This document shows, in pieces, positions 36,520 to 55,103 of a stretch of DNA of 64,000 bases. Made by a program: the position numbers and the translations under genes. Numbering within the stretch: the stretch's first letter is position 1; every line of letters starts with the position of its first letter. The stretch lies in assembly GCF_002902905.1 (NCBI RefSeq), contig NZ_CP026124.1:4030001-4094000 (forward strand), given 5' to 3'. The notes below the pieces were generated by a model, which worked only from the letters and a program-made list of their open reading frames with translations, did no database searches and was not told the origin of the DNA. Source of the stretch: Achromobacter sp. AONIH1. GTDB taxonomy: Bacteria; Pseudomonadota; Gammaproteobacteria; Burkholderiales; Burkholderiaceae_B.

Positions 36520-36852
36520 TTATTGAATGACCGCGGGCGCGGCATGCTGCGCCGCGCCGGGCTCCGTGGCTGCTTCGATCGCGCGGGCCTGTTCCAGCAT
36601 GGTTTCGGTCAGGACGCCCAGGTGCTCGCACAGGCATTCCACGCCGCCCATCAATGAGGCGACGGTCCACGCGTCCAGAGGCTGCGCGCCGGTGGCGTCG
36701 GGCTCGGCCGCGCTATTGCCGACCATGCGGGCGATGGTCTCGATGGCGCTGCGGGCGCGGTCGATGTGGTGGAGCGGGGCGAGGGGGATCAGGCCGAGTT
36801 CGGGGTCGGTGGGGATGGACCAGGGGTTTTGAGTGAGGGGGTGGGATTGCAT
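36520..36852 (-). CDS. Small hypothetical protein
   Basis: 110 residues with a CCGGAG ribosome site before 36852. A Pro-rich N-terminal part ('NPWSIPTDPELGLIPLAPLHHID') is followed by helices ('ARSAIETIARMVG', 'GVECLCEHLGVLTETMLEQARAIEAA'). No family recognised. The leader carries a hairpin-T5 structure (36928-36948) that may attenuate it. Confidence 0.6.
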   Translation of the reverse strand: MQSHPLTQNPWSIPTDPELGLIPLAPLHHIDRARSAIETIARMVGNSAAEPDATGAQPLDAWTVASLMGGVECLCEHLGVLTETMLEQARAIEAATEPGAAQHAAPAVIQ

Positions 36853-37284
36853 GACAAGCTCCGGTAGTGCTTGGAGTCCGCTATGCCTGGGGCCGTCCTT
36901 GGGGACGTGCGGAGACAAGCGGACATGAAAAAGCCGCCATTTGGCGGCCGTCCACCTGTGGCCTTTCCGGCTTCCATCCCGGACTACCGGTTTGTGCGGT
37001 AGTGGGGGGAGTATAGGGGAGGTGGGGTGGGGGATTGGAGGAATCAGACGAGATTACTTTTTTTGGGCGAGGCGCTCTTGCATCACATCTCTGACCTACA
37101 GATGCGAGTTTTGCGGTTAGATTTCGGAAATCAGCAATCTGCGTAGCGCTTTCTTTCGCGAATAAAGTCAAATTTTTCGGCCAATTGCTTGAGGTCGTCT
37201 GATACATGCATTCACTATATTCCCTGCCGTAAACTAGCAGTGTCCGAAACAATGGGATGAGTGCATTCCGATAGGAGCCAGTAG
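36853..37284. other. Leader of the small gene and promoter region of the STAND gene
   Basis: 432 bases. On the minus side there are two hairpins (36928-36948 and 36983-37003). From about 37050 the DNA becomes clearly AT-richer and leads into the 1522-codon gene, marking the left edge of a compositionally foreign segment. No att site or integrase seen. Confidence 0.5.
36928..36948 (-). terminator. Terminator-like hairpin in the leader of the 110-residue gene
   Basis: In minus-strand direction: stem GCCGCCA / TGGCGGC with a 2-base loop, then TTTTT (complement of 36928-36932), directly followed by an ATG at 36926. It is upstream of the gene at 36520-36852, so it could attenuate that gene or end an unseen upstream transcript. 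Confidence 0.5.
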
Positions 37285-40200
37285 ATGAGCATCGCGGGCG
37301 TACGCTCCAACCGAGGTGATGGCTATCAGACACTGGTGGCATTTGAGTGGGCATTGACAGTTCTATCCGATCCAGAATGTCTTTGGCTGGAGATCGATTC
37401 GATCACGTATTCTGTGGACGATGTGGTAGTCGGCAAAGCCGACGGTACTGTCATTGCTTGCCAGTGCAAGAAAAATCAGCCTGGTTTCAAGGCTTGGTCA
37501 ATCTCCGATCTTGCGGACGAATTGGATAAAGCATCCGGCTTGTTGATAAATAACCAGAATGCTGAGGTGCGATTCTATTCGCGTAACAATTTTGGCGCCC
37601 TCGGAAAATTAAGAGAGCACAGTACGACTCAGAATGACGAGGCGAGTTATTACGCAAGTTTAGACACCGAGAATCAAGCAACAGATGTGGCTTTGAAGGG
37701 ACGGCTCGCTACGTCAGCGCCCAGTCTTTCATCTTTCGAATTTTTGCGCCGCACAAGCTTTGAGATTAGTAAAGAATTGAACGGCATGCGCGATCTGTTA
37801 CGCGAACGCCTGCGTATTATCGCAAGCAATCCGGAAGCCGCATTTAATGCTATCTGGCGGCATCTTGATCAACTTGGGGCGCGTATCGGGGAGGATGGGA
37901 CATCTGCTGCTTGGCACCGATTGACCAAAGATGATCTCAAAGCCATTCTGCATGAGGCTGGAGCTATGCTGGTTCCTCCTATGGATCTTGCAGAGGTGCG
38001 TTTGTCGTTTGCAGATACCTCCGGTATCGGCAGATCATGGCGCAGAGACATTGCTGGGCAGAGGATTTTTAGTCCGACCGTGAAAGAACTGCTTGCCGCA
38101 ATTGATGCAAAGAAGAGGGCTATCTTGCTCACAGGCCTCCCTGGTTCCGGAAAAACCTGTGTGATGCTCGCTTTACAGGATGCTTTGGAGCAACGAGCAA
38201 AAACTTGCTCAGATATTGCACCACTTTTCATTCAGTCGCGTGAATTTGCTGACTTGCCCACAGCACAAGATCGACAATCCCAAGGGTTGCCTGAAAAATG
38301 GGTAGAAAAGGTCGCCCGTTTGGCTGAAAATACGCATGTCATTGTGGTGATGGATTCACTTGATGTTTTGTCCATCGCTCGAGACCATCGCGTGCTTAGC
38401 TACTTTCTGGCGCAGATAGACCGTTTGCTGTTGGTTCCAAATGTCACTGTAGTTACTGCTTGCCGCGATTTTGACAGGCATTACGACCGTCGAATTGCTG
38501 AAAGGAAATGGGACTGCGAATTGAAGTGTCAGTCTTTGGATTGGGATGGTGAAATATCGCCGCTGCTGGATAAACTCGGAATTGCAACGGTCTCCATTGA
38601 CTCGGCTACACGCGAGTTAATAAAAAATCCGCGCGAACTAGCCTTGTTTGTCGAGTTGGCGGAGCGGGAGGGCAGCTTCAATGTGGTGACTGGCCAAGCC
38701 TTGGCGCAACGTTATCTCGATACTATCGTGCGGGCCAATAATGCACTGGGGGATGCGGCAATACAAGCGATAGAAGCGATTGCCTCAGATATGTTGAGGT
38801 CACGCAGTCTAGCTGTGTCATATCAACGATTCGGCGCATCGCAGGAAATCCTTCGGGCACTTTGCAGCCTTAATGTGATTCAAGAAAGCCAAGACGGGAA
38901 GCTGGTGTTCGGGCATCAAACTTTGTTAGATGTATTGGTCATCAGTGGAGCGGTGCGCAGTGGCGTTACGCTGAATGACTTTCTTCAAAGTCTGCCTCCG
39001 GTTCCTTTCGTTCGTCCCAGTATTCGCAGTTTTGTCGCCCAATTAGCGCTCGGTGAACGCCGGGAATTCAGGAAGCAGCTACGGACCGTATTGACGGGTA
39101 GTACAGCTTTCCACATCAGGCGTTTGGTAGCAGAATCATTTGCTGAGCAGAAACCCCAGGATGATGACTGGCCATTGATACGCGACTTGCGTGAGAAGCA
39201 CCGTGATGTGTTTCAGGTGATCTATGGCGCTAGGGAAATTGAATGGCACCATTTCTGGTTAAAGCACCTTGTTCCCGAGTTAAGGAAAGCACGGGATGCT
39301 GACGGGATGGTAAGACATGTTTATTGGGTGGGGCAATGGGCAGATACAGACACTTCCGGCGTGATGACGTTGTGGAGAGAGGCGCTATCACTGGACTGGT
39401 TGGATGAAAGAAGTCTTGGAGAACAACTTGGATATCATCTATCCAAGATCAAATCTGACAATGTCGCACTGATTGTTCCGCTGCTTGAGCGATTGCTCGA
39501 TTTGCCTCGCTCCGAGCACAGCTCACTTGGGAGAGCCATTGCGCATTGCGTGGCGGCAGGGGGGGCGGATGATTTTCTATTATGGCGCTATATCGCAGAT
39601 GATGTTACTGACGAGGATCTAGCTGAGTTCAGATTCGATAAAAAACTGCGCTGTAATTCTCATGATTTTGGCGATAGCGATAAAAATTTTTTCCGCCAAC
39701 GTATGGAGCAGTCTACGACGCTGCTGGACTTGGTCGTGGAATCAATTGAGCGCTGGAGTGATGTTCGCGAATCACGCTATAGCGAAAAGTGCATTAGATA
39801 TAGGTATGGTTTTTTGGGAGAAACATCATACGATGATGCGCACAGTCAGAGAGATACGCAGTACGCAGATAGTCTGGAGATTCTGTTTGATGTGCTTGAG
39901 TCGGCCATAATTTATCACGCGAAAATAGATTCGAAATGGTGGAAAAATAACCGTGAACGCCTACTTTTTAGTCGAGAGGGGGCGCTAGTCTATTTTGCCG
40001 TCCTGGCGTGCACCGCCTCCCCTGAAGCCAACATCGATTTGATAGGGCGCATGCTGTGCGATAAGACTCTTTTGTGGTCGGAGCTTTCCTATGAATTTGG
40101 AACGTTGATTCATTCTGCATTCAATTACCTCGATTCTCTCACGCAAGATACGTTGATTGCAAATATTATAAATATGCGGAGTGAATATGCTCCGGATGAA

Positions 40201-41853
40201 TCGAGAGAGCTGTGGAGGTTGAGAGGGCAGGCTGAATTTATCGTCACTATTCCGTGCTATCAGCGCTCACCAGAATTGCAAGAATTATTAATCATATATG
40301 AGAAAAATTATGGTGTGCTGATTCGGCAACCACATATACGTCTGCGTGGTGGCTGGGTGCGTGCCCCGTTTTCATATGAAGTATTCCTCCGCGCATGTGA
40401 TGCCGGGGTACTGTGCCTGTTGTCGCACTACGCTGGATATGAACGTAGATTCGACGATTTTATGGTCGGTGGTGAGGATGAGGTTGGTTGGCAACTGCGT
40501 GAGGCTGCTTCCCGTCATCCTTCGCGATTTTTGGATTTGTTGCCTAAATATTGGGTGAATATTCAAAATCGATATCGAGATGACATCATGGATGGTGTTG
40601 TCGCCTTCATGAATCATCGTTATGGAAATTTGCAGATCAACGGCACGTGGACGCCTCTTGAAGAGCTCGATGGTCCTGTCTTGGCGGGGCTGATTCTTGA
40701 TGAACTAGAAAGGCACCCGGAGCATTGGCAACGCCGGCGCTCCGCAGCCGACGCGCTAAAAGCCTGTTCGAACGTCATATACGATAAAAATAGTGCTGAA
40801 CGGTTAAGTTTTCTTGCCATAGGATTTGAAGGTCTTAATGAGGCAGATCCGATAAAGGGAAATAATGTCGGGATCGTCACCATAGGTATCAATATGGTGA
40901 AGGGGAGGGTCGTCGAAGCCTTAATGATTTTGGCGAATAATATTCGTGAAAATAGGAGTGAATTTCCCGAGTTTTTAGGCCCTGCTTTGAGTCGCTTTGC
41001 CAGTGATGAGAGTCCGGCGATTCGCTCGCTGATCCTGCGCCGCTTGCCATACTTGCAAGGCAAAGATCTTGATTTTGGTTGGAAATTGTTCAACTTGGCC
41101 ATGAGTAATTCGCAGGGGTTGTGGGAGATCGCAGAGCCTTGCCTATATTATGCATATGACAATCACTTTGAAATAGTGAGACCTTTGCTAGTGCGTCTTC
41201 GTGATGAGGGTGGGGGCAAAGATCCAGAAGTATGGGGGCGAATTTCAGCGCTCGCGACGATGGCTCGAAAGATAGAGTTTTCTGAATTCTTGGCTGACTT
41301 GGCAGCGCTTAATAATGTGGATGCTTGGCGAGGAGCAGCTACTGTTTGGACAAACCTTGAAAATATCGAGCAACACCGGGATCAATGTCTTGCGGGTTTG
41401 GGCGCAGGTTTAAATTCTTGCGCTATCCATGCTGAGGCTGTCGCAGATCAGGTGGGGCATCTTTTCTATGAAAAATCAACGGTGGTTTCTCTTCCAATAG
41501 GGCTAATTCGAAGATATTTTGATGTGTTGAAAAACGATAGCAATGAAGAGAAAAAGCATCACCGTCTTACCGGGTTTCATGAATGGCTAAATTCGACCTC
41601 GCAGCGTGATCCTGAGCACGCTTTGGAAGCGACGGAAAGTTATTTGGCCTATGTCATTCATTGCAAGCCATATTTGTATGATCATAAAGATAGCCTTACC
41701 CAGTTAATGACCCGTCTCTTTGCTGAAGCAGAAGAACGAGAAGAGTCCGATTGTGGTGTGATGCTGCAGCGTGTGGTTGTCGCACAAGACACGCTACTTT
41801 CACTGGGGGTCAATGGTGTGGCCGATTGGTTGAAGGCCGCCGAGCGTCCTTGA
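37285..41853 (+). CDS. Giant nuclease-STAND NTPase, candidate Avs-like antiphage sensor
   Basis: 1522 residues, AGGAG ribosome site 8 bases before the ATG. The N-terminal domain (about 1-235) opens 'SNRGDGYQTLVAFEWAL' and has E36, D45-D46 and Q60-C61-K62, a PD-(D/E)xK nuclease pattern as in DUF4297/Cap4-type effectors. Next is a NACHT/STAND ATPase: Walker A GLPGSGKT (284-291), Walker B VVMDSLD (about 354-360), sensor 'TVVTACRDFD', and 'IKNPRELALFVEL', the winged-helix start. The remaining 1000 or so residues are helical and repetitive in feel, as in the alpha-solenoid sensors of Avs proteins. GC is visibly lower than in the flanks, indicating recent transfer. By analogy it would degrade DNA on sensing a phage protein. 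The family assignment is inference. Confidence 0.75.
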   Translation: MSIAGVRSNRGDGYQTLVAFEWALTVLSDPECLWLEIDSITYSVDDVVVGKADGTVIACQCKKNQPGFKAWSISDLADELDKASGLLINNQNAEVRFYSRNNFGALGKLREHSTTQNDEASYYASLDTENQATDVALKGRLATSAPSLSSFEFLRRTSFEISKELNGMRDLLRERLRIIASNPEAAFNAIWRHLDQLGARIGEDGTSAAWHRLTKDDLKAILHEAGAMLVPPMDLAEVRLSFADTSGIGRSWRRDIAGQRIFSPTVKELLAAIDAKKRAILLTGLPGSGKTCVMLALQDALEQRAKTCSDIAPLFIQSREFADLPTAQDRQSQGLPEKWVEKVARLAENTHVIVVMDSLDVLSIARDHRVLSYFLAQIDRLLLVPNVTVVTACRDFDRHYDRRIAERKWDCELKCQSLDWDGEISPLLDKLGIATVSIDSATRELIKNPRELALFVELAEREGSFNVVTGQALAQRYLDTIVRANNALGDAAIQAIEAIASDMLRSRSLAVSYQRFGASQEILRALCSLNVIQESQDGKLVFGHQTLLDVLVISGAVRSGVTLNDFLQSLPPVPFVRPSIRSFVAQLALGERREFRKQLRTVLTGSTAFHIRRLVAESFAEQKPQDDDWPLIRDLREKHRDVFQVIYGAREIEWHHFWLKHLVPELRKARDADGMVRHVYWVGQWADTDTSGVMTLWREALSLDWLDERSLGEQLGYHLSKIKSDNVALIVPLLERLLDLPRSEHSSLGRAIAHCVAAGGADDFLLWRYIADDVTDEDLAEFRFDKKLRCNSHDFGDSDKNFFRQRMEQSTTLLDLVVESIERWSDVRESRYSEKCIRYRYGFLGETSYDDAHSQRDTQYADSLEILFDVLESAIIYHAKIDSKWWKNNRERLLFSREGALVYFAVLACTASPEANIDLIGRMLCDKTLLWSELSYEFGTLIHSAFNYLDSLTQDTLIANIINMRSEYAPDESRELWRLRGQAEFIVTIPCYQRSPELQELLIIYEKNYGVLIRQPHIRLRGGWVRAPFSYEVFLRACDAGVLCLLSHYAGYERRFDDFMVGGEDEVGWQLREAASRHPSRFLDLLPKYWVNIQNRYRDDIMDGVVAFMNHRYGNLQINGTWTPLEELDGPVLAGLILDELERHPEHWQRRRSAADALKACSNVIYDKNSAERLSFLAIGFEGLNEADPIKGNNVGIVTIGINMVKGRVVEALMILANNIRENRSEFPEFLGPALSRFASDESPAIRSLILRRLPYLQGKDLDFGWKLFNLAMSNSQGLWEIAEPCLYYAYDNHFEIVRPLLVRLRDEGGGKDPEVWGRISALATMARKIEFSEFLADLAALNNVDAWRGAATVWTNLENIEQHRDQCLAGLGAGLNSCAIHAEAVADQVGHLFYEKSTVVSLPIGLIRRYFDVLKNDSNEEKKHHRLTGFHEWLNSTSQRDPEHALEATESYLAYVIHCKPYLYDHKDSLTQLMTRLFAEAEEREESDCGVMLQRVVVAQDTLLSLGVNGVADWLKAAERP

Positions 41854-41924
41854 ACTCAAAGTTAATGGGATTATTTCTCCGATGGGGATTTTTGATAAAA
41901 AGGGGATTAATAAAGGTATTTGAA

Positions 41925-42815: not shown

Positions 42816-43181
42816 AAAAGCTCGCGGTTCCCCTGGGAAATCAAGGACTTTGCTTCCTCGAACCTCGACGCCTTGCCATCATGGCGGCCAGACAGCCGGG
42901 AACAGGTATTCCTAGGCCTGGACCTGGAGATCGGCTTGCGGGGCGAGCGCGCTTCCAATATGTTCCATGTCCGCGTCGCCACGCCCGAGGCCTTGCGGCT
43001 GCATGGCGGCGGCTTTTGCATGGTGAAGCACCGCACGCTAGTGATTGCCGATTTCGACTGGAAGCAGCTGAGCGCCTTGCTGGACGACATCGTGCGCGAT
43101 TGCGCGAGGGGCAACTGGGAAGAATCCTGCGCGGTGCTGCAGAGGTACTTCAACCGGGAGTATGAAGACTATTCCACGTAA
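42812..43181 (+). pseudogene. Imm8-like immunity protein gene with a 1-base frameshift
   Basis: From the GTG overlapping the previous stop, the frame runs six codons and is then lost. If one C of the CCCC run at 42830-42833 is removed, it continues without break to 43181 as a protein of about 122 residues. The downstream part 'FLGLDLEIGLRGERASNMFHVRVATPEAL' and 'LVIADFDWKQLSALLDDIV...WEESCAVLQRYFNREYEDY' follows the Imm8 immunity family. Otherwise a TTG start at 42873 would give 102 residues. Either the gene is broken or phase-variable, or the base call is wrong. Confidence 0.6.
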
Positions 43182-45853: not shown

Positions 45854-46009
45854 TCGGGCGTTTTGATCGGGGAATTCGGATCGGGCGTGAATGCTATCCT
45901 GCTCGCGTCCGCTCCCGTCCGACCGTTGTCGCGCGAAAACTCCCGGTGTCGATGCGCAATCGATGCCGTGGTCGCGACAGCCCCGATCCCGTTTTCAAGT
46001 AGCAAGAAT

Positions 46010-46528
46010 ATGCCCACCCGCCTGCGAGCCATCCGTTCCGATATCACGAAGCTTCAAGTCGACGCCATCGTCAACGCGGCGAACTCTTCATTGCTGGGCG
46101 GCGGCGGTGTCGATGGCGCGATCCATCGCGCCGCCGGGCCAGAACTGGTGCATGAATGCAGGCTATTGGGTGGCTGCAAGACCGGCGAGGCCAAGGTGAC
46201 CAAGGCCTATCGTCTGTCCGCGCAGTACATCATTCATACGGTGGGGCCGGTATGGCGGGGCGGTGATAACGGGGAGCCGGGCTTGCTGTCCAGCTGCTAT
46301 CGCCGGTGCATCGAACTGGCGCAGGACAGGGCGCTTGCGTCGATTGCGTTTCCCAGCATCAGCACGGGCATCTATGGCTATCCCATTGAATTGGCGGCTC
46401 AGGAAGCGGTCCAGAGCGTTCGTGCAAGCCTGTCTGTGGAATCGTCGATTCAGGAAGTGCTCTTCTGCTGTTTTTCGCAGGAGGACTTGCTTCAATATGA
46501 GCGCGTCCTGAATGGACTGCCTGCCTGA
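46010..46528 (+). CDS. Macrodomain O-acetyl-ADP-ribose deacetylase (YmdB-type)
   Basis: 172 residues from 46010. '[29 protein letters not shown]' and '[18 protein letters not shown]' are the two ADP-ribose-binding loops of the macroD class, with the conserved Asn-Ala-Ala-Asn and catalytic Asp. It removes acetyl or ADP-ribosyl ester groups. It may act on ADP-ribosylated targets, including those made by toxins. The frame upstream to 45863 has no domain and is not counted. Confidence 0.93.
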
Positions 46529-47104: not shown

Positions 47105-48508
47105 CTAGCTTCCGATATCTGTGGCGGGCGTAGTGATTTCAGTCAGGCGCTGCCCGTCGTTGCCATCCTCGACTCTCCAGCCTCGGGTGCTTAACATCTT
47201 CCGTATTTCATCGGCTTTTGCCCAGTTCTTTGCCTCTCGGGCTTGAGCGCGCTCACCGAGCAGCACCCGAATGCGTTCCGGAATGTCAGGCGCAACTGGG
47301 TTCCAATCGCGTAGCCCGAGGCCCAGTACAGAATCAAAGCTGTCCACAGTCGCTTTCAAGGTCGCAGGAGGGAGCTCGCTCTTGACGAGTTCCCATAGCA
47401 CGGCCAATGCCCTCGGCAGATTCAGGTCATTATTCAATTCGGCATTGAAGCGCGCGACGAAATCCGGATCGATGTGGCCACCGTCCGACCAACCGGAATA
47501 GAGATGCCGCAGCCGGTTCAAGGCTGTCTGCGCAGCACCAAGAGACGCCCAGCTGAAATGCAGCTTGCTCCGGTAATGAGCTGTCATGCACAGGTAACGG
47601 TAGGCAAGCGGATCGATGTTCCGACTGCGCAAGGTCTGCAAGCGAACAAAGTCCCCACTCGACTTCGACATCTTGCTGTCGGCATTGAGTGTTAGAAAAT
47701 GTCCGTGTATCCAGAAGTTCGCAAGACGAGTGCCGTGGGCCGCTTGTGTTTGTGCAATTTCGTTGGTGTGATGCACGGCGATGTGGTCTTCTCCGCCACA
47801 GTGGATGTCGAACCAGATGCCGAGGTACTTCGCCGACATCGCCGAGCACTCAATATGCCAGCCCGGAAATCCACGTCCCCATGGGCTATCCCATTCCATC
47901 TGCCGCGCTACGCCTTCCGGACTGAACTTCCACAGCGCGAAATCCGTGATGTTCTGCTTCGTGCCAAGTGGCACGCGTTTGCCCGCCTGCAGGCCGGCAC
48001 GGTCGAGCCGGGCCAGAAAGCCGTAGTCATCCTGTTTGCTTGTGTCGAAATAGAGACCGTCGTTGGTCCTATACACGTAGCCGGACCGGTCCAGCTCGCC
48101 GATAAACGCGATCTGTTCGGCGATGTGATCTGTCGCGCGGCACCATACCGTCGGTTCCTGCAAGTTGAGGGCATGCCAATCCGCGACAAAGGCCTCGGTG
48201 TAGCGCTGAGCAATAGCGTATGCGGACTCCCCGGTCCGTCTGCTACCTTTTTCCATCTTGTCTTCGCCTTCGTCGGCATCCGAAGTCAGGTGGCCGACGT
48301 CGGTGATATTAACGACGTGACGGACCTCGTAACCGTTGCGAATGAGTACCCGGCGCAGAATGTCTTCAAACACATACGTTCTTAGATTGCCAATATGCGC
48401 ATGGTCGTAGACGGTGGGTCCACAGCAATACATGCCGACGTGATCAGCTTGGATTGGCGTGAACGAGCGCACGGTACGCGACCAAGTGTCATACAACGCA
48501 AGTGGCAT
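47105..48508 (-). CDS. cysS: Cysteinyl-tRNA synthetase, probable second copy under Cys attenuation
   Basis: 467 residues from 48508 (GGAGAG upstream). Class I signature HAHIGN (about 36-41, HIGH box) follows the zinc ligand region CCGPTVYD; further zinc ligands are in 'GWHIECSAMS' and 'HCGGEDHIAVHH'; the KMSKS loop is intact in 'ADSKMSKSSGDF'. It charges tRNA-Cys. GC is lower than in core genes nearby and it sits among accessory genes, so it may be an acquired paralogue; the housekeeping copy would be elsewhere. A Cys-rich leader peptide and terminator precede it. Confidence 0.93.
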   Translation of the reverse strand: MPLALYDTWSRTVRSFTPIQADHVGMYCCGPTVYDHAHIGNLRTYVFEDILRRVLIRNGYEVRHVVNITDVGHLTSDADEGEDKMEKGSRRTGESAYAIAQRYTEAFVADWHALNLQEPTVWCRATDHIAEQIAFIGELDRSGYVYRTNDGLYFDTSKQDDYGFLARLDRAGLQAGKRVPLGTKQNITDFALWKFSPEGVARQMEWDSPWGRGFPGWHIECSAMSAKYLGIWFDIHCGGEDHIAVHHTNEIAQTQAAHGTRLANFWIHGHFLTLNADSKMSKSSGDFVRLQTLRSRNIDPLAYRYLCMTAHYRSKLHFSWASLGAAQTALNRLRHLYSGWSDGGHIDPDFVARFNAELNNDLNLPRALAVLWELVKSELPPATLKATVDSFDSVLGLGLRDWNPVAPDIPERIRVLLGERAQAREAKNWAKADEIRKMLSTRGWRVEDGNDGQRLTEITTPATDIGS

Positions 48509-48543
48509 CAACTCTCTCCATGTCGAAGGGCGCAGGCAAAAAC

Positions 48544-48573
48544 AAAAAAGCCGCCGGTTTTGCAACGGGCGGC
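48544..48573 (-). terminator. Attenuator terminator in the cysS leader
   Basis: Read on the minus strand: stem GCCGCC / GGCGGC with an inner GTT / AAC pairing and a GCAA loop, followed by TTTTTTG and another T5. It lies between the leader-peptide stop and the cysS start, the position of an intrinsic terminator controlled by leader translation. Confidence 0.75.
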
Positions 48574-52322: not shown

Positions 52323-55103
52323 TTAGAAGCGCACGGCCAGCTTCAGCTGCCCCGACTGCTGCCGGTTGCCGCCGCCGAACTGCGCGTCGTAGCCGACGCC
52401 CACCGTGGTGTTGCGCGCGACCGCCATCTCGGCGCCCAGGCCCAGCACCGCCGCGTTGCGCGCGATGGGCACGCCCGTCACCGAGAAGTTGCTGCCGCCG
52501 TCCAGCGCCAGTTCCTGGCGCGGCTTCAGGTCGCCCGAGGCATGGCGCCAGCCCACCGACGCGGTCAGGCGATTGCTGCGTTCGGCGCCAAACTCCCATG
52601 CGCCGCGCAGGCCCAGCGTGCTGCTGGCGACGTCATTGGTGCTGGCCGATCCGCTCAGCGCGGCGCTGCCGCCCGACTCCTTGAAGCCGCGCGTGCGCAG
52701 CTGGTTCCAGGCCAGGCCGGCGTAGGGTTCGATGCTGTAGGCATCGCCCAGCGGCAGCGTGTAGCCGAGTTCGGTGTAGAGCTGCGTCGACGTGGCGCGA
52801 TAGGACGACTTGAGCTGCTGGTTCAGCGTTCCGGCCGCGACATCGCGCTTGGCGTCGATGTTGTGCCAGGTGTAGGCCGCGCCGGCCATGAAGCGCAGCT
52901 GGCCCGGGCCGGCGGCGAAGTTGCGGCCGCCGAAGACGGTCGCCGTGTAGCTGTCGACCTTGGTGCGCGACGCGCTGTCGGAGATCGTGTTGCGGCTGTC
53001 CAGATAGCCCACCGCGCCGCCCACGCGCCAGCCTTTGCCGGCTTCGGTGTCGCCGCCGACGAAGAGTCCGCCGGACGACTGGCTCACGCTGGCCGCGTTG
53101 CCGTCGCCCTTGAACTTGCTCCAGTTGCCGACGACCTGCGTCCAGACCGGATAGGCGCCGCTTTGCGGCAGGGCGTCGGGCGAGGGCGCGCCGCCGGCCT
53201 GGGCCGTCGGGCGTCCGGCGCGCATGGGTGCGTCCAGGTTGCCGCGCAGGCGGTCCAGCGACAGCGTGCGGACGGTGTCGCCCTGGCTCAGCAGCACGCT
53301 GGCGTTGCTGGCGTAGGCTTCGCCGGACAGCTGCTTCAGCGCCGTGCGCGCCTGGTCCTGGGTCATGGTCAGGACCGCTTGCGTGACCTGGCTGGCGCCG
53401 CTGCCCTGGTTCGCGGCGGCGCCGTTGCCGCCGCCGATGCCGACGCCAGACAGGCCGTTGCCGGCGGACGACGAGCCGCTGCCGGTCGAGGGCGGATCCT
53501 GCTTGTCCAGCGCGCCGCCGACGCTGCTCTCGTTGCCCGTGCCGCCGATGCTGCCGATCGGCACGTCGTTGCGCGTCAGCGTCATGTAGACGTTCTTCGG
53601 GTCGTAGCTGAGCGTGGGGGTCAGGAAGGCATAGGTGCTGGACGCGCCGGTGAAGCGGCCCTGCACGCCGCCGTCGGCCGTCAGGATGTTGTAGGTGGTG
53701 CGCGGCGCGTAGTTGCCGTTGGGACCGATGTGTTCCACGGTGCCGTCGAGCGTGGCCACGCCGGTGACGTGGATGCGGTCGCTCGCGGTGCTGGCGGGGT
53801 CGGCGTGCACGCGGTAGATGGTGTTCTGGCCGAAGGTCAGGTTGCCGTTGATCGTGAGCGTGCCGATGGGCGAACCGTCGTTGCCCGGCGCGATGACGGC
53901 GGTGGGGTAAAGCGTGGTGGTGCCCAGCTGGCCGACGCCGGCCAGCACGACTTCGCGGCCGATGTCGACGGGGCCGTTGAGCTTGCCGTCGATCTCCAGC
54001 GCGCCGTCGGCGATCAGGATGGGACCGGACAGGCCGCTGCTGTCGGCGGTCAGGATCACCGAGCCCGGGCCGGTCTTGACGAAGCCCTGCGTGCCTTGCA
54101 GCGGGTTGGTGATGGTGTCGACGTATTGGGCTGAGGCATAGGTGCCGTCGCCAACCACGATGACGGGCTGATTGCCACCGCTGCCGACCAGGGTGATGGG
54201 CGCGCCTTGCACGCGATACCGGTCGCTGGCGAACTGGATGCCGGACACGCGCACCGGGCCGGCGCCGCCGTCGACCGTGACCGTGCCGGCCGCGCCGGTG
54301 AAGATGGCGTAGCCGCCGTCGGGCAGGGCGCCCGTGGCGTTGCCGGGGCTGTTCCAGTTGGCGCTGCTCGCGGTCCAGGTGCCGTCGCCGCCGCCCGCGC
54401 GGGTCGCGGACGCCGCGCCGTTGCCGTTCCACAGGTTGGTGGTGCTGGGGCCCAGGATCAGGTTGATGTGCTTGTCGCCGGTCAGCGTCTGGATGTTGGC
54501 GGCGGGCACGGAGTCGCCGGTGACCGAGCCCAGGGTCAGGCCGTTGCCGCTGAGGTTGCCGGTGTACGACAGGATGCGGTAGTAGCCGGCGTTGACGCCC
54601 AGCGTGTTCACCGAGACGTTCAGCGTGGTGTTGTTCAGGGCCACGTCGCCGCGCACGGTGATGTTGTCGCCGGTGCCGGGTTGCGTGATGGGCAGGCCGG
54701 CGTAGCCGGTCTCGAAGTCGTACACGGCGTTGTTCATCGACAGGTTGCCGTTGACGATGAGGTTGCCGTTGGAGACGCCGGTGGGGGTGCCGACGGGATA
54801 GCCCGGCGCGACGCGCGAGTTGCCCGAGACGTTGAGGTTGCCGTTGATCGCGCCGAAGCCCGAGACGGTGGAGTTCGCGGTCGCATTGACGTTGCCGCCG
54901 AGCGTGACGCCCGCGCCGCCGCCGTTGCCGCCGATCACCAGCGTGCCGCCGTTGACGTCGACGCCGCCGGGGAAGCTGGCCGAGCCGTCGAATACCTGCG
55001 TATTGCCTGGCGCAATCGTCAGGTCGGCGGCCATGACGCCCGCGCAATAGGTCGCGCTAAGCGCGACCGTCGTTGTCAGCCATTTTTTCTTGCCATAGAT
55101 CAA
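52323..55103 (-). CDS. Classical autotransporter (type Va) with beta-helix passenger
   Basis: 926 residues from a TTG at 55103, supported by AAAGGA eight bases upstream. A Sec signal peptide (cleavage after VMA-AD) is followed by a passenger rich in G/N/T repeats ('NGGTLVIGGNGGGAGVTLGGNVNAT', 'NNTTLNVSVNTLG', 'YDPKNVYMTLTRND'), as in PL2-type passenger strands. A Gly/Ser linker leads to the C-terminal beta-barrel of about 280 residues, ending in the terminal Phe. The passenger would be displayed on the surface; possible adhesin or protease, no catalytic motif seen. The promoter region upstream is AT-rich. Confidence 0.92.
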   Translation of the reverse strand: MIYGKKKWLTTTVALSATYCAGVMAADLTIAPGNTQVFDGSASFPGGVDVNGGTLVIGGNGGGAGVTLGGNVNATANSTVSGFGAINGNLNVSGNSRVAPGYPVGTPTGVSNGNLIVNGNLSMNNAVYDFETGYAGLPITQPGTGDNITVRGDVALNNTTLNVSVNTLGVNAGYYRILSYTGNLSGNGLTLGSVTGDSVPAANIQTLTGDKHINLILGPSTTNLWNGNGAASATRAGGGDGTWTASSANWNSPGNATGALPDGGYAIFTGAAGTVTVDGGAGPVRVSGIQFASDRYRVQGAPITLVGSGGNQPVIVVGDGTYASAQYVDTITNPLQGTQGFVKTGPGSVILTADSSGLSGPILIADGALEIDGKLNGPVDIGREVVLAGVGQLGTTTLYPTAVIAPGNDGSPIGTLTINGNLTFGQNTIYRVHADPASTASDRIHVTGVATLDGTVEHIGPNGNYAPRTTYNILTADGGVQGRFTGASSTYAFLTPTLSYDPKNVYMTLTRNDVPIGSIGGTGNESSVGGALDKQDPPSTGSGSSSAGNGLSGVGIGGGNGAAANQGSGASQVTQAVLTMTQDQARTALKQLSGEAYASNASVLLSQGDTVRTLSLDRLRGNLDAPMRAGRPTAQAGGAPSPDALPQSGAYPVWTQVVGNWSKFKGDGNAASVSQSSGGLFVGGDTEAGKGWRVGGAVGYLDSRNTISDSASRTKVDSYTATVFGGRNFAAGPGQLRFMAGAAYTWHNIDAKRDVAAGTLNQQLKSSYRATSTQLYTELGYTLPLGDAYSIEPYAGLAWNQLRTRGFKESGGSAALSGSASTNDVASSTLGLRGAWEFGAERSNRLTASVGWRHASGDLKPRQELALDGGSNFSVTGVPIARNAAVLGLGAEMAVARNTTVGVGYDAQFGGGNRQQSGQLKLAVRF

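Follow-up and report, generated by a model that had tools for sequence, protein, structure and literature searches.

A predicted Avs-like STAND immune sensor in Achromobacter sp. AONIH1 and the exchange of effector domains among its relatives

Positions 37285..41853 (plus strand) of the window, the stretch of 64,000 nucleotides from Achromobacter sp. AONIH1 analysed here (contig NZ_CP026124.1, positions 4,030,001 to 4,094,000), encode what is probably a single-gene STAND (NLR-like) immune sensor of Avs-like type that acts by abortive infection. We put the likelihood of this reading at about 80%, and defence against phages is the presumed function. Sequence comparison and structure prediction provided the gene, its domains, folds and motifs, the lack of a recurring partner, a mobile distribution and an exchange of effectors within the family.

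We infer that in the resting cell the ATPase would keep the protein inactive. The C-terminal solenoid would then bind an infection-specific, probably phage-made protein, with a conserved phage protein as the likely trigger. The NACHT/AAA module would bind ATP, oligomerise and so gather the N-terminal Cap4-type nuclease domains, and the gathered nucleases would cut DNA non-specifically and end the replication of phage and host alike.

RESULTS

The gene

The gene is one intact ORF of 1522 codons, which starts with ATG, runs without interruption to its stop codon (1522 aa plus stop) and encodes effector, STAND NTPase and solenoid sensor in this order. A probable ribosome-binding site, AGGAG (37273..37277, plus strand), can be read in the sequence 7 nt 5′ of the ATG. 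A consensus scan found a terminator-like hairpin with a T run 23 nt past the stop (41876..41888, plus strand); this call is weak because the stretch contains 7 such sites, against 4.9 (sd 2.3) in shuffles. The frame is open and the motifs are intact, and a pseudogene was rejected for this reason. The length of the frame, together with full-length relatives of near-constant length, means that the ORF did not arise by chance. The low-GC block described in the original prediction is apparent from the base composition: GC is 0.47-0.50 in the 1-kb bins from 37 to 42 kb, whereas the four bins on the left of the gene have 0.65-0.68 and the five on its right 0.59-0.62.

Effector domain

The effector, residues 1-228 (37285..37968, plus strand), is predicted to be a Cap4/DUF4297/LmuA-type PD-(D/E)xK nuclease. 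In a fold search with the predicted model, residues 4-228 matched Cap4, DUF4297 (HerA-DUF), LmuA and a Hachiman chain, and in the PADLOC scan the LmuA profile matched the window protein. A Cap4/DUF4297-type nuclease fold is thus predicted for about residues 1-228, the part on whose fold the original prediction depended. For nucleases of the Cap4/DUF4297/LmuA type, control elsewhere lies with a SAVED domain or with partner proteins, whereas here the nuclease is fused to a STAND switch.

Two motifs mark the domain. D45-D46 (37417..37422, plus strand) are D and D in 227 of 227 aligned rows, and in Q60-x-K62 (37462..37470, plus strand) the glutamine is present in 226 and the lysine in all 227 of them. 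The four residues are kept jointly in 226 of the 227 nuclease-type rows, in which the window protein enters twice (as Q and as P0001). We take this DD...QxK pattern to be the Cap4-type catalytic motif. The originally proposed PD-(D/E)xK motif stands in these four residues and fails in its glutamate, E36: residue 36 is E in 131, Q in 86 and another residue or a gap in 10 of the 227 rows. Judged from this alignment, E36 is no conserved catalytic residue of the family.

NTPase and solenoid

The NACHT/AAA-type STAND NTPase core comprises about residues 229-440 (37969..38604, plus strand). A Walker A motif at residues 284-291 and a Walker B motif near residue 357 had been predicted, and both could be read. 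Walker A is GLPGSGKT (38134..38157, plus strand), with K290 and T291 in 76 of 76 lettered rows (79 in total), and Walker B is VIVVMDSLD, residues 352-360 (38338..38364, plus strand), with D357 and D360 kept in 75 of 75 lettered rows (79 in total). The core is followed by a helical/winged-helix-like regulatory STAND part, residues about 441-560 (38605..38964, plus strand; boundary approximate). This part contains H544 (38914-38916, plus strand), which is H in 75 of 75 lettered rows (79 in total) and is presumably the nucleotide-sensing histidine of STAND proteins. According to the fold prediction, residues of about 229-560 form a NACHT/AAA-type STAND switch with the effector on one side and the repeat sensor on the other. 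The window protein missed the Pfam gathering score for NACHT (19.7 bits, 26.7 required), and a GT4-type relative scored 26.5 bits against the same threshold.

The remainder, residues 561-1522 (38965..41850, plus strand), is predicted to be an all-helical solenoid and is the putative sensor, in agreement with the roughly 1000 residues of helical repeats first noticed in the sequence. The AlphaFold2 model of residues 567-1522 has 54 helices of at least four residues and no strand, with a mean pLDDT of 78.6; this model and that of the residues 1-620 region are of middling confidence (pTM 0.56 and 0.47, respectively). Among the 50 rows listed, the fold matches of the solenoid were generic HEAT/karyopherin/armadillo-like proteins. 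Its conservation is highest at residues 561-640, where 65 rows average 78% identity to the window protein, and lowest at residues 1361-1440 (44%, 62 rows).

Distribution

The homology search kept 942 proteins. The best 120 of these are all at least 67% identical to the window protein, and all but one of the 120 have a length of 1501-1533 aa. A scan of one genome per species found 103 relatives, and the 80 best of them served as loci. The gene is single-copy in its own 6.65-Mb genome and was not found in the 100 relative genomes searched, of which 20 listed ones belong to the host genus. Among 369 genomes of the class any match was obtained in four, the genome of origin and three in which the match was partial or interrupted. 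The gene is sporadic and probably acquired, and its presence in one of 101 genomes of the relatives set (its own genome included), together with horizontal spread of the family, suits the antiphage candidate that it was originally predicted to be.

The labels in a sensor tree of 87 rows are Pseudomonadota, Nitrospirota, Chlorobiota, Cyanobacteriota, Ignavibacteriota, Thermodesulfobacteriota, Myxococcota and one Minisyncoccota bin; several of them belong to metagenome bins, in which contigs may be misplaced. The phylum labels are intermixed on the tree, a pattern expected from horizontal spread. A protein of genome G391, 32% identical across residues 1-587, sits at a contig end. The phage records searched gave no match. 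For E. coli, neither megablast with the gene of Klebsiella grimontii nor blastn with a 3993-base part of the Pectobacterium gene gave any. The flanks of the window gene match relatives in scattered pieces only, and no clean empty site was read.

Three copies of the gene are on viral contigs, and two of them stand among phage genes. In the first (L095:8994-15250) the gene is carried as cargo, flanked by an endolysin gene and an antitermination-Q-like gene that are both on the other strand, and the contig also carries portal, head protease, replication and repressor genes. The second copy comes after genes for the phage tail and for a phage-type DNA polymerase. At the third locus the one protein scanned had no match. 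Relatives at about 30-32% identity also occur on cyanobacterial plasmids, some of them typed conjugative, which would be in keeping with a sensor of plasmids, other invading elements or host damage, having the same effector chemistry and another trigger. We consider such a sensor unlikely, as the Avs-like layout and the prophage position would fit superinfection exclusion better.

Neighbouring genes

The original prediction saw no partner gene in the window, and the same is true of the family: among 545 neighbouring ORFs no neighbour family was present in more than 4 of 77 loci. The locus genes are longest-ORF picks made by a script, and L079, which has no ORF in the family set, was left out. 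With 4 of 77 loci as the largest share of a common neighbour family, a two-gene system was rejected. An ordinary restriction enzyme was also rejected, on account of the STAND layout and the lack of a recurring methyltransferase neighbour.

Some of the recurring neighbours resemble integrases and UmuC, and Pfam assigned four Integrase_1 and two IMS proteins among the 146 nearest neighbours. At E<=1e-10 these 146 proteins match 147 PADLOC models, as against 4 models (mad2, mad3, mad8 and AriA) matched by 121 control proteins, a difference that is a tendency and not a rate because the models overlap, models and not proteins were counted, and the control is not species-matched. The control keeps 121 of 149 picked proteins, 28 having been dropped for the residue limit; they lie in 20-kb stretches of the host genus at two fixed positions, eight stretches of ten being represented. 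GajA, KwaB, AbiEii, type IIG restriction and type I methyltransferase are among the models matched by the nearest neighbours, and each of the 25 models listed was matched by one or two of the 146 proteins. Ordinary genes such as gyrase B and FGAR amidotransferase are also found there. At distances above 6.5 kb, 112 proteins had matches to 116 PADLOC models, DndD, PbeC and DrmMI included. The neighbourhoods of the homologues thus tend to hold more defence models than the control, and the homologues do not stand consistently in non-defence contexts.

In the window itself, PADLOC had no match in the five close ORFs scanned, and Pfam assigned DUF695 and Imm8 among six close neighbours, leaving four without assignment. 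The Imm8 immunity protein (42873-43181, plus strand; 69 bits) is possibly the product of an orphan immunity gene, since none of the scanned neighbours could be recognised as a toxin. Just upstream of the family gene a hypothetical protein is encoded at 36520-36918 (minus strand); the DNA of this stretch matches many of 31 genus genomes, sometimes in more than one place each, and may belong to a multi-copy family. Other genes of the window code for a Macro-domain protein about 4 kb downstream (45863-46528, plus strand), a cysteinyl-tRNA synthetase-like protein of 486 aa (47105-48565, minus strand) and an autotransporter beta-domain protein of 926 aa (52323-55103, minus strand). At two closely related loci a large upstream ORF, 1304-1310 aa in length, precedes the gene (L059:4987-8919 and L062:4949-8863). 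Two neighbours in the set matched nSTAND1, possibly these large ORFs.

Relation to known systems

According to PMC12931631, STAND proteins consist of an effector, an NTPase and a sensor, and Avs1-Avs4 are systems with a nuclease, which detect terminase, portal or Ksap1. The window protein has the three-part Avs layout described there, with a nuclease-fold effector of predicted activity. In Foldseek with residues 1-620 the three best rows were Avs3 and Avs4 chains (TM by query length 0.40-0.49), and with a nuclease fold, a STAND NTPase and a helical solenoid in place the Avs-like layout of the original prediction is upheld. The likeness to Avs3 (8dgc) and Avs4 (8dgf) consists in an N-terminal effector, a STAND NTPase and a long C-terminal sensor in one chain. 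The difference is that the window family has no detected profile-level sequence relation to them. A profile made from 15 relatives matched neither Avs3 nor Avs4 among PDB chains at E<=10 (hmmsearch, 14 sequences listed), and both structures were confirmed members of the PDB collection used; the same profile matched 9n00 with 2645.5 bits and, weakly, Pch2 (E 1.1e-4). No Avs-named model was matched in PADLOC or NCBIfam, whatever Avs models those libraries contain. The 50 rows listed from the solenoid search include no Avs C-terminal domain, which excludes nothing.

The three-part layout, the nuclease effector and the top Foldseek matches would also be expected of a true member of Avs1-Avs4 that senses large terminase or portal, and the outcome of the profile search (for Avs3 and Avs4) and of the two model libraries makes such membership very improbable. 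On the best reading of the sequence, the protein would work like an Avs, and membership in Avs3 or Avs4 is unsupported.

The closest solved protein is an 'AAA family ATPase' of 1523 aa (PDB 9n00, 9n01 and 9yix), matched with 2224.6 bits across window residues 1-1522. It is of the same protein family, with full-length homology and a different sequence. The window family is already under study, since this full-length relative was solved. The 'new' of the original prediction was therefore too strong in view of the three PDB entries. 9n00 was absent among the rows listed by the fold searches of both models, and a full-text search of the open-licence literature for the codes found no paper naming 9n00, 9n01 or 9yix. 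With T7 portal, T7 terminase (376 aa part) and T7 capsid as queries, to see whether 9n01 might contain such a protein, the PDB entries listed (at most 8 codes per row) did not include these three, from which nothing firm follows.

Two other leads were followed. The PADLOC candidate PDC-M54A matched weakly (28.4 bits, best stretch residues 440-549); on the evidence of about 110 residues in the best stretch, out of a profile of 1621 positions, it is not the same family. GiPD474 was dropped as a family lead because its gene spans only 1086 bases in PMC12724215.

Exchange of effectors

The N-terminal effectors of 271 listed relatives are a nuclease in 226, a GT4-conflict glycosyltransferase in 20, a caspase in 14, a trypsin-like domain in four and SEFIR/TIR in one, and six have no N-terminus. 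These counts are not frequencies because the lists hold the best 120 of 942, of 434 and of 175 matches, and they exclude the GT4 proteins P0153-P0242, which have other sensors.

The L043 protein (label: Rhodoferax ferrireducens) has GT4-conflict (PF20706, 269.5 bits, residues 10-416) in place of the nuclease, and aligns to residues 169-1522 of the window protein at 60% identity. A homology search with it listed, in the best 120 of 434, 20 more proteins of the same make-up, one of which (P0130) is missing part of the N-terminus. In three GT4 relatives examined, the alignment to the window protein starts at residues 191, 223 and 230, approximately where the nuclease domain ends. GT4-conflict proteins with TPR repeats have this domain in common with the 20 listed relatives but differ in the sensor, most of rows P0153-P0242 carrying TPR-type Pfam families. 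In those rows the domain is often found with nSTAND5 and TPR-type families, which makes the glycosyltransferase common to several sensor types.

Pfam detected the caspase domain in relatives of about 31% identity, several of them from named cyanobacteria. The trypsin-like domain is present in four relatives and SEFIR/TIR with EAD7 in one; the Pfam rescan covered three of these four and the SEFIR/TIR protein. E-x7-E is intact in 20 of 20 GT4 forms, H and GFSGAP in 4 of 4 trypsin-like forms, and GHG in 14 and D[CS]C in 13 of 14 caspase forms. We assume that these are the catalytic motifs of the respective effectors. The caspase forms L002/L083 (one record) and L003 have a decayed nuclease remnant, in which D45 and D46 are both N, and the caspase form L082 has kept most of the nuclease domain. 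In L082:9107-14623 and P0246 the caspase stands ahead of a nuclease domain that can still be recognised, and such forms may be intermediates in the exchange.

A FastTree of 261 sensors requires at least 14 effector changes, which is the parsimony minimum on this one tree. It leaves out 10 of the 271 rows, 7 incomplete ones and 3 more without an N-terminus. Both sensor trees were made with FastTree and have some weak forks. In the 261-row tree the nearest kin of the trypsin-like, the SEFIR and some caspase forms are nuclease forms (support 96-100). In the 87-row tree 3 of 21 GT4 rows are nested in a nuclease group (support 96-97). The two trees attach the GT4 forms differently and so do not tell whether the nuclease gave way to GT4 or the reverse.

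DISCUSSION

Effectors are swapped on a kept switch and sensor, which suggests that selection keeps the sensor and not one effector chemistry. We see about even odds that the NTPase and sensor, some 1290 residues found in loci that carry the labels of eight bacterial phyla, detect one conserved infection signal and have been combined in evolution with five or more effectors of different chemistry (Cap4-type nuclease, GT4, caspase, trypsin-like and SEFIR/TIR), so that in some forms a glycosyltransferase would do the killing for an intracellular alarm protein. Domains of the GT4, protease and TIR types are also known from conflict systems for which an action on phages has not been demonstrated. 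We found no earlier description of effector swaps on this sensor in the open-licence literature.

If the window gene is an Avs-like immune sensor, it belongs to a widespread sensor family, and a further conserved phage pattern may be what triggers it, because no sequence relation to Avs3 and Avs4 was detected. If the exchange of effectors on a constant sensor is real, the swaps would allow one to ask what the GT4-conflict domain does to the cell while the trigger is held constant, with the nuclease form as the reference.
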